DNA of 64,000 nucleotides, taken from positions 124,001 to 188,000 of the forward strand of contig NZ_JARFYM010000003.1 in NCBI RefSeq assembly GCF_030272705.1. The letters are read 5' to 3'. This document shows positions 5,606 to 51,221 of this stretch, one piece after another; position 1 is the stretch's first letter; every line of letters begins with the position of its first letter. Under the pieces are notes generated by a model. It was given only the letters and a program-made list of their open reading frames with translations. It was not told where the DNA came from and made no database searches. The DNA comes from Rhizobium mayense (GTDB taxonomy: Bacteria > Pseudomonadota > Alphaproteobacteria > Rhizobiales > Rhizobiaceae). The translations under genes and the position numbers were made by a program.

Positions 5606-5731
5606 ATGAGTCGTCGGTCGCGGCGCCTCGTCAGAATGGAGCGCTATATGATGAAGCGGCTGCTTCTGATCATAGCCGCCCTCACTCTATTTGCGCTCGC
5701 CCCGTTGGCACTGTTGATCTCCGCCTATTGA
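5606..5731 (+). CDS. Small single-span membrane peptide
   Basis: A 41-residue peptide starting at ATG 5606, six bases after a strong GAGGAGG site. The first 18 residues are Arg-rich (MSRRSRRLVR...), followed by one hydrophobic span to the end (about 19-41, LLLIIAALTLFALAPLALL). The frame is open further upstream to 5471, but the ribosome site favours the short form. Basic N-terminus and C-terminal span suggest an inner-membrane peptide with the N-terminus inside. No family recognised. Confidence 0.5.
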   Translation: MSRRSRRLVRMERYMMKRLLLIIAALTLFALAPLALLISAY

Positions 5732-8899: not shown

Positions 8900-9534
8900 G
8901 CTGTCCTCCTACGCGGCAAGTTGTCGTTCGCGGCGACGAGCCGCGTTACAGGTGATGGCATTTATGATTTCCCTCGGTAGCAGCGAGCCGCAAAAGCGGC
9001 TGGTGGCGGGCCCTTGGTGGCCTTCGTATGGATAAGGTGATGATGCTGTAAACTAGCGAATTTATCAATATAGAGATTGACACGGAAGGCGATATGTGCA
9101 TGCAAAGATATTTAATAAAAATTCAACACGCTATTTAATTAATTCAAAGTATTCGTTGTGATTCAAATATTGAATGATATCATTAAATTGTTAGGCGACT
9201 TTCCGCCTACGTGGCGGCGATAAACAGCCGCATTGGGCCGCCGCACGATCCCCGCCGACGGCCCAATTTTTATGATTTCTCCAATTGCGAATTTTGCGGA
9301 TGAGAAAAAATGCCTAGGCCGCCGGTAGGTTGGCGAACGGATGTAGAACGCCGATATTGCCCTCCCGTTAGCCCCGATTTGCGCTAAATTTCCCAACGAT
9401 TCCTCATGCGCGCTCTGCGCGTACGCGCCTGGGATTCCTGTGTTAGCACCATCGTGGTGGAGGCCGAGCGGTAGTAGGAGAGGGAGTGGGCAGGATGCGA
9501 GCACCCCTCCCGCTCGCCAATATTGCTTTTGCCG
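8900..9534. other. Gene-poor stretch with an AT-rich pocket
   Basis: No convincing gene. From about 9040 to 9195 the sequence is strikingly AT-rich (TTTAATAAAAATTC, TTTAATTAATTC), unlike the GC-rich surroundings. The open frame 9163-9504 on the minus strand has no signal, motif or ribosome site. The stretch is best read as foreign or decayed DNA of the accessory strip. Confidence 0.6.
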
Positions 9535-15931: not shown

Positions 15932-16843
15932 ATGGCTCAGCCAAGTGTAGTGCGTGAACCGTCCATGGAAGAGATTCTGGCGTCGATCCGCCGGATTATC
16001 GAAAGCAACGAACCCGGTGCCGGCAAGTCCGTTTCCTCCTCCCTGCCAGCGCTTTATACCGTTGCCGACGACGACCAGGATGGCGATATCCACCTGACGG
16101 TCGACGAAGAATTTGCTGCAGCCGAGATGGATGACGTACCGCCAGCCGCTGTCGCCGAGCCGCGTTTCGTAGCAGCCAATTCGCAGGTTCCGATACGTGA
16201 GCCGGAATCGCCCGCCCGCACCATGTCGCTTGCCGACGTGGCAGCGCGCGTTCGCGCCGCCTCCGAGCGGAATGCTGCGCAGCTAAACCCGGCGCGCGAA
16301 GCGCCGCAGCCGCGCGAATTACCGCCGGCCATGGCCGCACGTTTCGCCGAGGCGCGAGTTGAGCCGATTGCCGACGTGCCATTGCGCAGCGCTATCGCCG
16401 AAGCGCCGGTGCCCGTCGTTACGCCGCCTGCGGCTGCCCTTCTCGCCGAGGCCGCCGTGCCGGTCGCGAAGGCCGAGCCACAGCCTGCACCGGTGGAAGA
16501 GCGGCAAGCCCCCGTTCCCGCAGCGCCCGCTCCGCTCGAAATGCCGGTTTTCAATCAACCGCAACAGCAGCCGGCTGCGGCCGCCGCCGATCGTTACCTG
16601 CCGCAAGTGCAGGCTGAGCTTGCATCGTCGCTGATGTCGGAAGCCGCCGGTGCGCAGGTCGCCCATTCCTTCGGCGAACTCGCCGCCGCGATCGACGGCA
16701 GCCAGCGTCGGTCGCTGGATGAGATCGCCCAGGAGATGCTGCGGCCGATGCTGCAGGAATGGCTGGACGACAATCTGCCGACCTTGGTCGAGCGTCTCGT
16801 GCGTGAAGAAATCGAACGCGTGGCTCGCGGCCCGCGCCGCTGA
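15932..16843 (+). CDS. popZ: PopZ-type polar organising protein (DUF2497)
   Basis: 303 residues from ATG 15932, seven bases after GGGGA; a second ATG lies two codons upstream. The short N-terminal motif REPSMEEILASIRRIIE and the C-terminal helices SLDEIAQEMLRPMLQEWLDD and LVERLVREEIERVARG flank about 210 residues of Pro/Ala/Glu-rich disordered sequence, the architecture of PopZ. Such proteins self-assemble into a condensate at the cell pole and anchor chromosome and cell-cycle factors; in the related Agrobacterium PopZ marks the growth pole. It precedes valS as in other Rhizobiales. A terminator separates them. Confidence 0.85.
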   Translation: MAQPSVVREPSMEEILASIRRIIESNEPGAGKSVSSSLPALYTVADDDQDGDIHLTVDEEFAAAEMDDVPPAAVAEPRFVAANSQVPIREPESPARTMSLADVAARVRAASERNAAQLNPAREAPQPRELPPAMAARFAEARVEPIADVPLRSAIAEAPVPVVTPPAAALLAEAAVPVAKAEPQPAPVEERQAPVPAAPAPLEMPVFNQPQQQPAAAAADRYLPQVQAELASSLMSEAAGAQVAHSFGELAAAIDGSQRRSLDEIAQEMLRPMLQEWLDDNLPTLVERLVREEIERVARGPRR

Positions 16844-46317: not shown

Positions 46318-47727
46318 TTATTGTCCAAGCCATCCAGCGCAATCGGCAAGCGCCCGCTTGGCGATGAGTTGCCGTTTTATGATCGTCTTGTCCTTGCCGC
46401 GGAAGCGCTTGACGCCTTCCGGCTTGACGATCGAGCCCGGTCGCAATTCCGGAAACAGCCCGAAATTGATGTTCATCGGCTGGAAGGAGCGTTTACCCGG
46501 CTCTTCATCGGAAACGATATGGCCGCCGGTAATATGATTGAGCAGCGACCCCAGCGCCGTCGTGTCCGGCGGCAGCGACGGCGACTGGCCCTTGCGCTCG
46601 GCGGCGGCGAAGCGACCGGCGAGCAGGCCGATGCTGGCGCTTTCGACATAGCCTTCGCAGCCGGTGATCTGGCCGGCAAAACGCAGGCCCGGCCGCGATT
46701 TCAGCATCAGCGAGCGGTCGAGCAGGGTCGGCGAATTGATGTAGGTATTGCGGTGCAGGCCGCCGAGCCGTGCAAATTCAGCGTTCTCGAGGCCCGGAAT
46801 CAGCCGGAAAATCTCGGCCTGCGCACCATATTTGAGCTTCGTCTGAAAGCCGACCATGTTGTACAGCGTGCCGAGAGCATTGTCCTGGCGGAGCTGCACG
46901 ACCGCATAGGCTTTGACAGTCGGATTATGGGCATTGGTCAGGCCCATCGGTTTCATCGGACCGTGGCGGAGCGTCTCGCGCCCGCGCTCGGCCATGACTT
47001 CGATCGGCAGACAACCGTCGAAATAGGGCGTGCCTTCCCATTCCTTGAAGCCGACTGCATCGCCAGCGATCAACGCATCGACGAAGGCATTGTATTGGGC
47101 TTCGTCCATCGGGCAGTTGATATAGTCCTTGCCTGTGCCACCCGGGCCGACCTTGTCGTAGCGGGACTGGTACCAGCAAATGTCCATGTTGATGCTGTCG
47201 CGATAGACGATCGGTGCGATGGCGTCGAAAAAGGCAAGTGCGTCCGCGCCAGTCTCGGCTTGGATGGCGCTGGCGAGCCCTGGCGCGGTCAAGGGCCCGG
47301 TGGCGATGATCGCCTGGTCCCATTCATTCGGCGGCAAACCGTGGATCTCCTCGCGCACGACAGTGATCAGCGGATGGTTTTCGATCGCCTGCGTTACGGC
47401 TGCCGAAAATCCGTCGCGATCCACGGCCAGCGCGCCGCCGGCGGGAACCTGATGCTTGTCGGCCGCAGCCATGATCAGCGAACCGGCAAGGCGCATTTCC
47501 GCATGGATGACGCCGACCGCGTTGCTGGTCGCATCGTCTGAGCGGAAGGAGTTTGAGCAGACGAGTTCTGCCAGACCATCGGTCTTATGCGCCTCGGTGC
47601 CGCGCACGCCGCGCATTTCGTGCAGGATGACGGGTACGCCGGCACTGGCTATCTGCCAGGCAGCTTCGGAGCCGGCAAGGCCGCCGCCGATGACGTGAAT
47701 AGGAGAAAAGGAGCTGGTATTTGTCAT
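46318..47727 (-). CDS. trmFO: Methylenetetrahydrofolate-tRNA-(uracil-5-)-methyltransferase TrmFO
   Basis: 469 residues from ATG 47727 (MTNTSSF). FAD-binding [14 protein letters not shown] (10-23), the TrmFO marks [14 protein letters not shown] and [14 protein letters not shown], and late [10 protein letters not shown]. It makes ribothymidine at position 54 of tRNA using folate and FAD. The stop lies 4 bases past the right arm of the 46124-46314 repeat. It is oriented against the neighbouring block; a family A repeat lies 44 bases upstream of its start. Confidence 0.95.
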
Positions 47728-47770
47728 GCGCGCGTCATTACCACGGGCAGGCCGGCGATCCAATTGCTTT

Positions 47771-47943: not shown

Positions 47944-48087
47944 TTAACGGAAAGAGCGGGAAGCGATGTTGCGGATTTCGTAGCGGCTAACGCCGATATC
48001 CGAGAGAGTCTGTGCGGAAAGGTTGCCGAGCTCGTTCAGGGTGCGGCGATAGCTAATCCAGTTCTTGGCAATACGAATCGGGTTCAT
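47944..48087 (-). CDS. DUF1127 small protein (left copy)
   Basis: 47 residues, start after GAGGACA. Sequence MNPIRIAKNWISYRRTLNE then LGNLSAQTLSDIGVSRYEI: the DUF1127 pattern of a basic helix followed by an LxxLSxxxLxDIGLSRxDI motif. Rhizobial and agrobacterial DUF1127 proteins are linked to RNA metabolism and to phosphate and stress responses. It carries its own terminator; a second copy lies 304 bases upstream on the same strand. Confidence 0.9.
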   Translation of the reverse strand: MNPIRIAKNWISYRRTLNELGNLSAQTLSDIGVSRYEIRNIASRSFR

Positions 48088-48311
48088 TGTCTTGTCCTCG
48101 GTCATTCAGTTGCGAGCGGCACGATTGCCGCCTCAGCGCTTGACATTCATATAGGTGCGAGGACGAATATTTTGCAGTGCAAATAAAAGGCGTCTGCTAT
48201 GCATTTGTGCAATATGACGCCCAAAAAGCCACCAATGCCCAAATTTTATGTGCCATGTGCCGGGCGAATGGCTTTAGGCAGTACGTCTGTTGCTGCAGGC
48301 GCGAACAGCGC

Positions 48312-48391: not shown

Positions 48392-48538
48392 TTAGCGGCC
48401 GGTGGCTTCGCGAGCTACGCGATGGATGTCCGAACGGTCGATACCGAGGTCGTGCAGTTCGCGGGTGCTCATGCGGCCGAGTTCGGTAACGGTCTGACGG
48501 TACTTGCGCCAGTTATTGAAAGAGCGGGTCAGGTTCAT
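48392..48538 (-). CDS. DUF1127 small protein (right copy)
   Basis: 48 residues, start after AGGGAC. MNLTRSFNNWRKYRQTVTE then LGRMSTRELHDLGIDRSDI, with a REATGR end. It is a paralogue of the 47944-48087 gene rather than a recent duplicate: the core motif is kept but most other positions differ. Both have separate terminators and separate ribosome sites, so they are two small transcription units. Confidence 0.9.
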   Translation of the reverse strand: MNLTRSFNNWRKYRQTVTELGRMSTRELHDLGIDRSDIHRVAREATGR

Positions 48539-48998
48539 TTTAAGTCCCTTTCGAGGATCTGGAGATCTTGTCGGTTCCGTAATTGGTTCCGTCCGCGATC
48601 TGATGAGCGTGAATATATGCTGCGCTGCAAGAACTAAAAGAGCGAATGCTTCATGTCACCTATGCATATGACGCATTTCTCACGGGCGATTTGCCGAGGC
48701 AAATGACTGCTTTATGTGCACATCACGGCAGCGTGAACATGACTCATCAGCTGAAAGGTGGACGAATACGCGCGTTTTTGCGCAAATGCAGGGCAATTGC
48801 TCAGGTATTGCCTGCTTTCGATCATGATTCACATGATGTTGTGAGGCTCGCTGGATTGGGAGGCGGTCGTCATCCCGCGAGGTAAGAATTCTGCTCTCTG
48901 CATTTTTTCCGCGTTAATCCCGTGCTCTGTCCTGCTTAACGGCGCCTTGCAGGTCATATCCGCTGATTCATGAAGAATTAACTGACTTAATTGGGAGA
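48539..48998. other. Region between DUF1127 gene and sRNA terminator
   Basis: 460 bases without a supported gene. The open frame 48646-48885 (+) has no ribosome site or motif. It presumably contains the promoter of the right DUF1127 gene on the minus strand; no distinct element could be fixed. Confidence 0.4.
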
Positions 48999-49118
48999 TA
49001 AAAATAACGCCCACCGCGGGAGGAGGAGGCGGTGGGCGTCATTTGTGGTGATTGACGACTGGGAGGAGGAGTGTCGTCAATCCATCGGAGCGCACTGGGA
49101 GGAGGAGTGTGCGGCTCC
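48999..49118 (-). ncRNA. alpha-r14-type small RNA with three anti-Shine-Dalgarno loops
   Basis: About 120 nt on the minus strand folds into three hairpins in a row, each exposing CCTCCTCCC in its loop. Hairpin 1: 49118-49086 (CGGAG plus CGCAC arms). Hairpin 2: 49081-49051, perfect 9-bp ATTGACGAC / GTCGTCAAT. Hairpin 3: 49039-49007, perfect 11-bp stem followed by TTATTTTTA, the terminator. This is the plan of the alpha-r14 (also called cuckoo) sRNAs of Rhizobiales, which are thought to pair with ribosome-binding sites of target mRNAs. A CTTGAG/TAGAAT promoter stands upstream. The 5' end is uncertain by a few bases. Confidence 0.85.
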
Positions 49119-49120
49119 GA

Positions 49121-49148
49121 ATTCTATCTGAGGAAATCCTTCCTCAAG
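49121..49148 (-). promoter_or_regulatory. Promoter of the alpha-r14-type sRNA
   Basis: On the minus strand CTTGAG (49148-49143), 16 bases, TAGAAT (49126-49121). This fits the rhizobial sigma-70 pattern CTTGAC-N17-CTATAT and would start transcription near 49114. Confidence 0.6.
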
Positions 49149-49449
49149 CTCTTTCCGGCTTTCGCCGAAGCGGCGCGCTACCGCCGTCCTTCGATGCTCA
49201 CAAAATAGTATGACTTTTGAATTTTGTGCAGCGCAATAATTTCATGGGAGGTATGTCGGCTGCGCATGCCTTCGAAGCTCTGCATTCTACAGATCGAATT
49301 ATAACGAATGAAGCCTTAACCCCCCCCCTTTTAATGTGGTGCGGCATGCCCTGCATTGCAGGTGATTTCAGCGATGAATGAGCGACCTCGCTCGCACTTA
49401 ATATGTGATAAGACACGTTGATGAGGGAATCGCAGTTTAGAGGCGCGCA
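49149..49449. other. Region upstream of the DUF2157 gene
   Basis: 301 bases with no gene. It includes a run of nine C (49320-49329 area, CCCCCCCCC) after TTAACC, a homopolymer that could vary in length, and no recognisable operator. Confidence 0.4.
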
Positions 49450-50604
49450 ATGTATCGGGGTAGGCTGGAGCGTGATCTAAAGGTCTGGGTGGAGAAGGGA
49501 CTGGTCGACGCGTCGGCGGCGGCAGCGATTCTCAACGAATATGACAGCCGCCCGGCAAGCTTCAGCCTCGGTCGCGTGCTTGCCGTCATGGCCGCACTTC
49601 TCGTCGGTGCGGCGATCCTGCTCTTCGTGGCGTCGAATTGGGAAGAAATTCCGAGAGTTGTCCGGCTCCTCGGGCTAATCGCGCTGATATGGGCCTTTTA
49701 TCTTGGCGCCGCCTATTTATTCGTGCGCGCCCGCCCGATCCTCGCCTCGGCCTTGCTGATTATCGGCACGATCAGTTTCGGCGGTGCCATGTCACTGGTT
49801 GGTCAGATGTATAATCTGTCCGGTGATGAGCTGACGATGATGATCGTCTGGTTCGCGGTCGCCAGTGTAGCCGCCGCGCTATTTCGCTCGGGCGCGCAGG
49901 TCGGCCTCGCCGGTTTCCTGGCTTGGGGATTTTGCGGCCTCTATCTCTGGGAGCACTATAACGAATGGTACGGCGTCATGCCCTGGGTGCCGCCGATCAT
50001 GGCGGCCGTGCTGATCTCCCTGGTCCGATATGTCGATGCGCCTGCGTCCCGGCATTTGGCCTATCTCATGCTTGTCGGCTGGCTGACCTGGATTTTCACG
50101 CAGTATGAGAGCCTGCGCGCGGCGATCCTGTTTGCCGCCGCCGGCATGATTGCCTTCCTCGCCGTCAGCCTCCCGCTTTCGCCTTTGACGAGGGTCGCAC
50201 GAACTGCCGGCGCCGCACCTGCCTTCTATACTTTTCTTATCGCTACCATCGGGTTCTTCGCGATCCATGGGGAGATCAGCGATGGGGGCTTTGAGAATAG
50301 TGCATGGGTTGGAAACAGGCTGCCGCTCATCGTGGTCTCCTTCGCGACGCTGGCAAGCGCGGTTGTTGCGATCATTCTGAGCGGCCGCGACAACAGTGCG
50401 GTGCGCTACCTTGTCTACTTCGTCTTCGCCGGCGAAATTTTCTATCTCGCCAATGAGACGGTCGGTTCGATCATCGGTACGTCCGGGTTCTTCCTGATTT
50501 GCGGCGTGTTCGTGGCAATCGCCGCCTGGCTGGTCATCCGGCTGGAGCGGCGATTCTCCCATAGCAACGGCTCCCATGGTGATGGGCAAGGGGTGCAGGC
50601 ATGA
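49450..50604 (+). CDS. DUF2157 multi-span membrane protein
   Basis: 384 residues. A soluble N-terminal segment of about 35 residues (MYRGRLERDLKVWVEKGLVD) with the DUF2157 LxxWVxxGLIxxxxAxxIL pattern, then about nine to ten membrane spans from 45 onward, and a hydrophilic tail. GTISFGGAMSLVGQMYNLSGD is the most conserved-looking loop. Role unknown. The stop overlaps the start of the GDYXXLXY gene (ATGA), so the two are coupled and probably form one complex. Confidence 0.85.
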   Translation: MYRGRLERDLKVWVEKGLVDASAAAAILNEYDSRPASFSLGRVLAVMAALLVGAAILLFVASNWEEIPRVVRLLGLIALIWAFYLGAAYLFVRARPILASALLIIGTISFGGAMSLVGQMYNLSGDELTMMIVWFAVASVAAALFRSGAQVGLAGFLAWGFCGLYLWEHYNEWYGVMPWVPPIMAAVLISLVRYVDAPASRHLAYLMLVGWLTWIFTQYESLRAAILFAAAGMIAFLAVSLPLSPLTRVARTAGAAPAFYTFLIATIGFFAIHGEISDGGFENSAWVGNRLPLIVVSFATLASAVVAIILSGRDNSAVRYLVYFVFAGEIFYLANETVGSIIGTSGFFLICGVFVAIAAWLVIRLERRFSHSNGSHGDGQGVQA

Positions 50605-51221
50605 CGGTCACAGGCGACGTCAGCTCCGTTGCACGCAATTTCAGCCGCCGCATGTGGGTCGCCGCCGTCGTTGTCGCCGCGCTGCAGACGGCGGTCCTGG
50701 GCTATATGGTCGGCGAAAGGGCATGGGGCCTGAGGAGCGGCGTCGAAGTCCTATTGAAAACAGCACCGATCGATCCGCGCGATTTACTGCGTGGTGACTA
50801 CGTGACGCTGAACTACGACATTTCGCGCGTGCCGGTATCGACCCTGATCGGTGGCCCACCGACGGAAAATCGGACAAACCAAGTTCTGTCCGTCCGCCTT
50901 AAAAAGCAGGATGACGGCTATTGGGGCGTCGTCGAATCGTCCTTCGGAACGCTGGAACCGAAATCGGACACGGTCGTCCTCAAAACCCTGCCTTTTGACT
51001 ATTTCTCCTATGGCGATAGTGCGCCGTCCCCGCAGGCTACGATTTCTGTCACCTACGGCATCGAGCGCTATTATGTGCCCGAAGGCGAGGGCCGCAATAT
51101 CGAGGATGCCCGCAACCACGACCGCGTCGCGATCGCTGCCCGCGTTTCCGCCGATGGCGAGGCGCATATCAGAAGCCTGCTTTTGGACGGTAAATCCGTT
51201 TATGAAGAGCCGCTTTACTGA
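50601..51221 (+). CDS. GDYXXLXY-domain membrane-anchored protein
   Basis: 206 residues. One N-terminal span (about 16-36, AAVVVAALQTAVLGYMVGER), then a periplasmic domain with the family motif RGDYVTLNYDIS (about 67-78) and a YYVPEGEGRNIED segment typical of the family. These proteins usually neighbour DUF2157 genes, as here. No catalytic role is known. Translation is coupled to the upstream gene through a 4-base overlap. Confidence 0.88.
   Translation: MTVTGDVSSVARNFSRRMWVAAVVVAALQTAVLGYMVGERAWGLRSGVEVLLKTAPIDPRDLLRGDYVTLNYDISRVPVSTLIGGPPTENRTNQVLSVRLKKQDDGYWGVVESSFGTLEPKSDTVVLKTLPFDYFSYGDSAPSPQATISVTYGIERYYVPEGEGRNIEDARNHDRVAIAARVSADGEAHIRSLLLDGKSVYEEPLY

Follow-up and report, generated by a model that had tools for sequence, protein, structure and literature searches.

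The minus strand of the window, by which we mean the whole 64,000-nucleotide stretch of Rhizobium mayense DNA that was analyzed, encodes a real member of an already described RNA family, ar14. Taking the evidence together, we consider it likely that the locus specifies a trans-acting sRNA of ~195 nt, leader included, with its own promoter and redundant loops, and that it is the Rhizobium form of the DUF1127/CcsR-type (CIN1) locus. The sRNA is of a known kind. As far as the literature searched shows, the corrected gene model, the leader class and the place in a DUF1127 locus are new; the leader class was not found in that literature. The useful outcome is a corrected gene model, comprising leader, start and promoter, and a tie to DUF1127 genes. 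Coordinates are collected in Table 1.

Table 1. Features of the ar14 locus and its neighbors, in window coordinates.
Feature	Position	Strand	Evidence
ar14 body (RF02344)	49002..49125	-	full-length match, 112 bits, gathering score 58.8, model 1-123
Hairpin H1, CCUCCUCCC in loop (49097-49105)	49085..49120	-	fold, motif, pair changes on both sides in 23 orthologues
Hairpin H2, CCUCCUCCC in loop (49061-49069)	49050..49082	-	fold, motif, pair changes on both sides
Hairpin H3 with terminator, CCUCCUCCC in loop (49018-49026)	49002..49044	-	fold, motif, one pair changed on both sides
Predicted 5' leader, ~75 nt, non-coding	49121..49196	-	kept in place in 23 orthologues; model R1; no conserved reading frame
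Leader hairpin Ha	49171..49186	-	folds; C-G/G-C change between clades; no double change in 16-row alignment
Leader hairpin Hb	49154..49169	-	3/6 pairs changed on both sides in 16 orthologues; missed by RNAalifold on 23 rows
Leader hairpin Hc, overlapping the CTTGAG-N16-TAGAAT string	49128..49147	-	22/23 orthologues; 4/7 pairs changed on both sides
Predicted core promoter: TTGCGCTGCACAA box, -35-like CTGCAC (49226-49231), 17 nt, -10-like CTATTT (49203-49208)	49203..49236	-	box in 23/23 orthologues
LsrB-type dyad TGCR-N6-RCAT, -70 from predicted start	49253..49266	-	strict in 20/23 orthologues
DUF1127 gene 1, 48 aa	48392..48538	-	Pfam PF06568, 59.4 bits, cut-off 23.3; dyad 48662-48675
DUF1127 gene 2, 47 aa from inner ATG	47944..48087	-	PF06568, 47.6 bits, cut-off 23.3 (query one codon longer upstream)
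Putative promoter element of DUF1127 gene 2, ar14-like: TGCACAAATGCAT (N5 form of dyad), TTGCACTGCAAAA, CTATAT	48151..48211	-	sequence pattern
trmFO-like gene (GIDA family), synteny anchor	46321..47763	-	Pfam PF01134, 332 bits

The ar14 body, its motifs and its copies

A first-pass annotation had placed the locus in the alpha-r14 (cuckoo) family and proposed a covariance search. Using cmscan, RF02344 (ar14) matched over the whole model (1-123) at 112 bits, above the gathering score of 58.8, which bears out the assignment. No Rfam sRNA family other than ar14 reached its gathering score in the window. Identities as CcsR1 (RF02791) and 6C RNA (RF01066) were rejected because their covariance scores, 29.1 and 15.8 bits for CcsR1 and 27.7 bits for 6C, lay below the gathering scores of 65.3 and 47, respectively.

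The 127-nt fold of the ar14 region had an energy of -59.3 kcal/mol (z = -9.18), which was equaled in 0 of 200 shuffles. As previously proposed, three minus-strand hairpins carry the exact CCTCCTCCC in their loops, at 49018-49026, 49061-49069 and 49097-49105, and CCUCCUCCC is unpaired in each of them. Exact CCTCCTCCC occurs at four sites in the window against 0.44 expected, and at least four were obtained in 0 of 100 shuffles; the sole further exact copy lies at 16035-16043 on the plus strand. The last stem contains the perfect 11-bp terminator hairpin that had also been described (ACGCCCACCGC/GCGGTGGGCGT). Specifically, this arm lies inside a 16-bp stem, the loop (CTCCTCCTCCC) is longer than the motif, and the stem is followed by UUAUUUUUA, an interrupted T-run in the DNA and hence an interrupted U-run in the RNA. 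A simple terminator scan, which accepts loops of 3-8 only, did not report the last-stem terminator. Conservation of the three loops is strong among orthologues of the window locus, although members of one clade (L046, L058, L065, L078, L094, L107 and L141) have a shortened third loop.

RNAs of the ar14 family are described as having three hairpins with an identical anti-Shine-Dalgarno motif (PMC10746234, PMC7143759, PMC3927594), and NfeR1 is reported to silence target mRNAs, including ntrBC, redundantly through its three motifs (PMC10746234, PMC7143759). By analogy, it is plausible that the window RNA pairs with several mRNA leaders. The target site that had been quoted at 5606 reads GAGAGGAGGTGCGCATG, not GGAGGAGG. 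The site near this position is GAGAGGAGG before an ATG, a strong yet generic Shine-Dalgarno sequence. Targets ranked by duplex energy over 55 crude window ORFs (candidate starts at 9504, 5831 and others) were dropped as too crude; the random 1% level in this search was -15.1 kcal/mol, with many starts permitted per ORF.

The Rhizobium genome holding the window has four ar14 copies. An ar14 match was present in all 37 genomes of the genus examined, our own included, and 100 of 111 genomes of the family scored above the cut-off. In 36 genus genomes, 187 copies exceeded the cut-off; we compared 100 of them, drawn from 21 of these genomes, together with our own four. Among the 104, 72 carry three exact motifs, 28 carry two, three carry one, and one carries none. 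Defined by its flanks, the locus of our own L002 was found in 22 of 22 genomes and that of L004 in 21 of 22; one over-cut-off copy of G003 (on C899) lies outside the set, so the 22nd genome may have the latter too. In L002 (1501-1623, minus strand) and its orthologues the third loop is CTCCTCCCC or similar, so that many genomes have only two exact motifs there. The other groups comprise copies with an added fourth 5' hairpin, our own L003 among them, and some rarer groups. In L003 (1501-1625, minus strand) and similar copies, this fourth hairpin also bears an anti-Shine-Dalgarno motif; it is shortened in L003 itself. The window locus, which was split by eye from a larger group merged by clustering, was found in 19 of 22 Rhizobium genomes and was missing from G003 (82% complete), G015 and G036.

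Predicted promoter and start, and an LsrB-type dyad

The promoter region was compared across 23 orthologous loci, the window locus being represented in 19 of the examined genus genomes and in four further named ones. The first-pass annotation had read CTTGAG-N16-TAGAAT as the promoter. The string is indeed present at 49148-49121; its role as a promoter was not supported. CTTGAG-N15-18-TAGAAT occurs in two of the 23 orthologues, CTTGAG in two and TAGAAT in five. Moreover, the string overlaps the conserved hairpin Hc, and a start ~7 nt past TAGAAT would land within the 5' arm of H1 and so cut this hairpin. On these grounds, the string was rejected as the promoter. A simple sigma-70 scan of 48800-49450 returned no promoter-like site, neither this one nor the one proposed below.

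Further upstream, ~110 nt before ar14, the box T[T/C]GC[A/G][C/T]TGCA[C/A]AA is present in 23 of 23 orthologues, and GTCATACTATT was found in 20. In the 7.37-Mb genome, the combination TTGCRCTGCAMAA-N9-17-CTAT has two occurrences, one preceding ar14 and the other DUF1127 gene 2. Taking CTATTT, separated from CTGCAC by 17 nt, as the -10 and placing the start 12 nt past the first base of CTATTT, we infer with good support a transcription start near 49196 from a conserved CTGCAC-N17-CTATTT promoter. A strict dyad of the LsrB type stands exactly at -70 from this predicted start in 20 of the 23 orthologues; in the remaining three, one half is altered and the place is the same. The LsrB site of NfeR1, TGCA-N6-GCAT at -72 to -60, is reported to be backed by gel shifts and mutation (PMC10746234), and by analogy LsrB may bind the predicted dyad at the window locus.

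The position of the dyad relative to the Rfam start differed among the ar14 loci. At one leaderless locus, the distance was -65 to -67 in 19 of 21 copies. At a second, it was -66 in 11 of 22 copies, and the other 11 had no strict form. Together, 30 of the 43 copies of these two groups had the dyad at -65 to -67. Four-hairpin copies that possess a dyad have it at -102 to -105, and 16 of 19 copies of the window locus have it at -137 to -142. One four-hairpin group lacked the strict dyad in 19 of its 22 copies; the dyad was also missing from all three copies of one rare group and from five single copies, and its background in downstream flanks was 0.31 per kb. The simplest reading of these positions is a constant dyad-to-start distance, which would imply ~71-76 nt of extra RNA at the window locus. 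Because a fixed distance is assumed and the dyad is farther upstream here, the start is put near 49196 and the length at ~195 nt. Thus, the RNA probably reaches ~75 nt farther upstream than first annotated. Used as a ruler, the dyad predicts the start of each ar14 class.

These data also bear on the reading that the locus encodes an ordinary, leaderless ar14 of 120 nt, started just upstream of H1, with everything farther upstream being mere promoter DNA. The existence of the CTTGAG-N16-TAGAAT string would suit such an RNA, as would the 123-nt transcript described for NfeR1 of S. meliloti (PMC10746234) and the two other ar14 loci of the genus, whose dyad lies ~66 nt before the body. However, the dyad of the window locus would then stand at about -140, the stretch supposed to be the promoter pairs with changes on both sides, and the rarity of the string (2/23; TAGAAT in 5/23) and the cut through H1 both count against it. 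We regard this reading as unlikely. Judged from the predicted promoter and dyad positions, the NfeR1-type layout, in which the promoter immediately precedes the body of a 123-nt RNA, was not found at the window locus.

It is very improbable that the locus is a silent copy, that is, one of several redundant ar14 genes transcribed at no useful level. In S. meliloti, northern blots under the conditions used reportedly gave reliable detection of just one of six copies (PMC7143759), which would be in keeping with silence here. Against this stand the occurrence of the locus in 19 of the 22 Rhizobium genomes compared, a box kept in every one of the 23 orthologues, and the strong conservation of the three loops, the third being shortened in the clade of L046 and relatives.

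The predicted leader

The additional RNA predicted by the longer gene model, containing three hairpins, was examined for kept pairing. In 16 orthologues, 90.4% of the cells in the leader structure were paired as compared to 85.0% in shuffles, 20 cells were changed on both sides as compared to 8.8, and the covariation score was 0.250 as compared to 0.158; none of 500 shuffles was as good in any of these measures, which are biased in favor of the structure in that it was derived from the very sequences counted. Under the same bias, there were 7 pairs with a change on both sides (5.1 in shuffles), a count matched in 66 of 500 shuffles, and 16 further pair types (13.4 in shuffles), matched in 22 of 500. 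When the partner was slid along the leader, pairing fell to 34-49%. Hc was kept in 22 of the 23 orthologues, L038 having a weak alternative pairing, and was better than base shuffles at the 0.05 level in 16 of 23. Folded singly, 9 of 12 leaders were within 2 standard deviations of their own shuffles, and z was below -2 in just three. From the 23-row alignment, RNAalifold recovered only three pairs of Ha, three of Hc and no pair of Hb.

Because of a one-base shift in one clade, the leader model, R1, was built on the 16 consistent rows, with the other seven held out. All seven were matched by R1 directly upstream of ar14 with 21.5-39.3 bits; the top off-site match scored 15.4 bits. This test is carried by place rather than by score, since 21-30 bits is noise at genome scale. 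Thus, across 151 genomes of the family, R1 gave 88.7 bits at its own locus and 21-30 bits in 33 other genomes, and an Rfam match was absent from all nine loci of that group that were checked. R1 was rejected as a genome-wide probe for leaders: it is too weak, with matches of 21-30 bits within noise. In the genome-scale search it missed G017, of the same genus, although the G017 locus has the promoter. Outside the genus, R1 matched directly upstream of ar14 in two of 28 loci (L156, 26.5 bits; L165, 17.2 bits). The strict promoter pattern was found in two of the 151 genomes, both of the genus, and the box with a free -10 was more widespread.

Two further explanations of the leader were weighed. 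According to the first, it is a short reading frame or an attenuator and not a structured RNA leader. An ATG or GTG does lie in the loop of Ha in 20 of 23 orthologues, and a DUF1127 gene of S. meliloti is reported to be controlled by a translated upstream frame (PMC12218461). However, the frame runs from 9 to 61 codons with different end frames, and the start is GTA in the window and L119 and ATA in L131. A reading frame in the leader was rejected, as it is not kept among the 23 orthologues, and the explanation as a whole is extremely improbable.

According to the second, RNases shorten a long precursor that starts near 49196 to a 120-nt ar14, and the leader is a discarded spacer. Such cutting has parallels in the ccaF1-CcsR transcript, which is described as cut by RNase E (PMC10253847), and in SmelA075, for which several processed forms are reported (PMC3927594). 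The kept pairing suggests that the leader is more than a spacer, yet it is compatible with cutting. This explanation agrees with most of our reading of a ~195-nt RNA, the sole difference being the use of the leader, and we judge it a real possibility that falls short of probable. Any role of the leader is hypothetical.

DUF1127 genes and relation to known systems

Both DUF1127 genes sit between ar14 and the trmFO-like gene, on the strand of ar14. We take the product of the latter gene (46321..47763; PF01134) to be TrmFO. Upstream of DUF1127 gene 1 there is a strict dyad with a 42-nt gap to the -10. At gene 2 the dyad is one base shorter, and the gap to the -10 is 44 nt, as at ar14. The pattern of dyad, gap and -10 gave two matches in the window, at ar14 and DUF1127 gene 1, against 0.05 in simulated sequence. 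We presume that VtlR is the counterpart of LsrB. In Brucella, VtlR is reported to activate three DUF1127 genes and AbcR2 (PMC12595884).

On the other side of the sRNA, and divergent from it, a gene for a DUF2157 membrane protein is followed with a 4-base overlap by a GDYXXLXY gene (49450-51221, plus strand). The DUF2157 protein has 91% identity to that of Rhizobium calliandrae CCGE524, the nearest named genome found. A run of nine C at 49320-49328 (plus strand), between the ar14 promoter and the DUF2157 gene, is a possible slippage site.

Gene order was surveyed in 80 genomes belonging to the family but not to the genus, over ~3 kb upstream of trmFO (less in two of them). Of the 80, 71 have a cluster of two or more motifs there, and 74 have a DUF1127 frame. 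In 40 of the 71 clusters, a DUF1127 gene ends at most 60 nt from the first motif. In 22 genomes the order is RNA-first, with DUF1127 solely after ar14. The remainder comprises eight genomes with a larger gap, one without DUF1127 and nine without a cluster. Identity to the TrmFO of the window served as a substitute for a tree. At identities of at least 84% (n = 19), 16 genomes were RNA-first, three had no cluster and none was DUF1127-first. At 81% or less (n = 58), DUF1127 lay directly before the cluster in 39; eight had a larger gap, five were RNA-first, five had no cluster and one had no DUF1127.

The box precedes the cluster in 30 of the 71, and 17 of these 30 have a strict dyad at -70 from the predicted start; in the other 13, mostly without a fitting -10, the box match may be something other than this promoter. 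In G073 and G072, box and dyad precede a DUF1127 frame that ends just before ar14. From these arrangements we infer that the DUF1127-first order is ancestral, with a leader occupying that place in the Rhizobium lineage; the window locus would then be the Rhizobium form of the DUF1127/CcsR-type (CIN1) locus. Remains of DUF1127 were not found in the window leader, where the best tblastn match was chance-like (E 0.028 over 11 residues). A profile search of the 300 nt preceding the first repeat gave no DUF1127 match either in the window or in the 22 RNA-first loci. Simple in-place decay of a DUF1127 gene is therefore disfavored. In the RNA-first locus L225 (1744-2004 after turning; G144), a long leader ends by eye in a frame resembling a DUF1127 tail, for which phmmer gave no match. 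Upstream of trmFO in other genera, L228, L249, L224 and L252 have three tandem ar14-like repeats after DUF1127 genes.

Based on the abovementioned features, we propose that an LsrB-type dyad at -70 and the CTGCAC-N17-CTATTT promoter would direct a start near 49196. The resulting RNA of ~195 nt would consist of a folded, non-coding leader of 75 nt with three covarying hairpins, followed by the ar14 body and terminator. Transferring the mechanism of the homologue NfeR1, the three loops would pair redundantly with Shine-Dalgarno sequences and block the translation of several mRNAs. Hypothetically, a DUF1127 protein might mature or chaperone the ar14 RNA. In Rhodobacter, ccaF1, which encodes a DUF1127 protein, comes first, and RNase E with CcaF1 is reported to mature the CcsR RNAs (PMC10253847). 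The evidence for DUF1127 proteins is described as split between RNA binding and protein binding (PMC12501420). NfeR1 reportedly does not need Hfq, and its helper, if any, is named as an open question (PMC10746234). The presence of DUF1127 in the locus (74 of the 80 family genomes surveyed), together with the maturation role described in Rhodobacter (PMC10253847), makes this question directly testable. More tentatively, and on balance doubtfully, the locus may represent a distinct ar14 class with a structured leader at the place of DUF1127 and LsrB-type coregulation with DUF1127 genes, whose proteins would be the missing maturation factor or chaperone.

Among known systems, AbcR1/AbcR2 (ar15) resemble the window RNA in their anti-Shine-Dalgarno loops and in control by LsrB/VtlR (PMC7143759, PMC10746234, PMC12595884), but are an RNA family separate from ar14. 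CcsR1-4 of Rhodobacter sphaeroides with ccaF1 (CIN1) share the arrangement of a CCUCCUCCC RNA beside DUF1127 on one strand (PMC10253847): at the window, short DUF1127 genes (48392-48538, 47944-48087) adjoin the RNA on the same strand. In contrast to CIN1, the window RNA fails the CcsR1 model (29.1 of 65.3 bits), and DUF1127 lies downstream of the RNA. With this reversed order, the CIN1 arrangement, in which the RNA follows a DUF1127 gene on a shared transcript, was not found, and co-transcription is disfavored because the RNA has its own predicted promoter and terminator.

The four-hairpin relatives of SmelA099 type share the loop motif, the body and, where present, a dyad farther upstream (-102 to -105) (PMC3927594). 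They differ in that their extra 5' hairpin bears an anti-Shine-Dalgarno motif, whereas the leader of the window locus contains no CCTCC. Finally, NfeR1/SmelC397 of Sinorhizobium meliloti, itself an ar14 RNA, is similar in its three CCUCCUCCC-loop hairpins, its terminator, the several copies per genome and an LsrB-type dyad ~70 nt before the start (PMC10746234, PMC7143759). The window locus differs from it in a predicted 75-nt structured leader, another core promoter box and adjoining DUF1127 genes.
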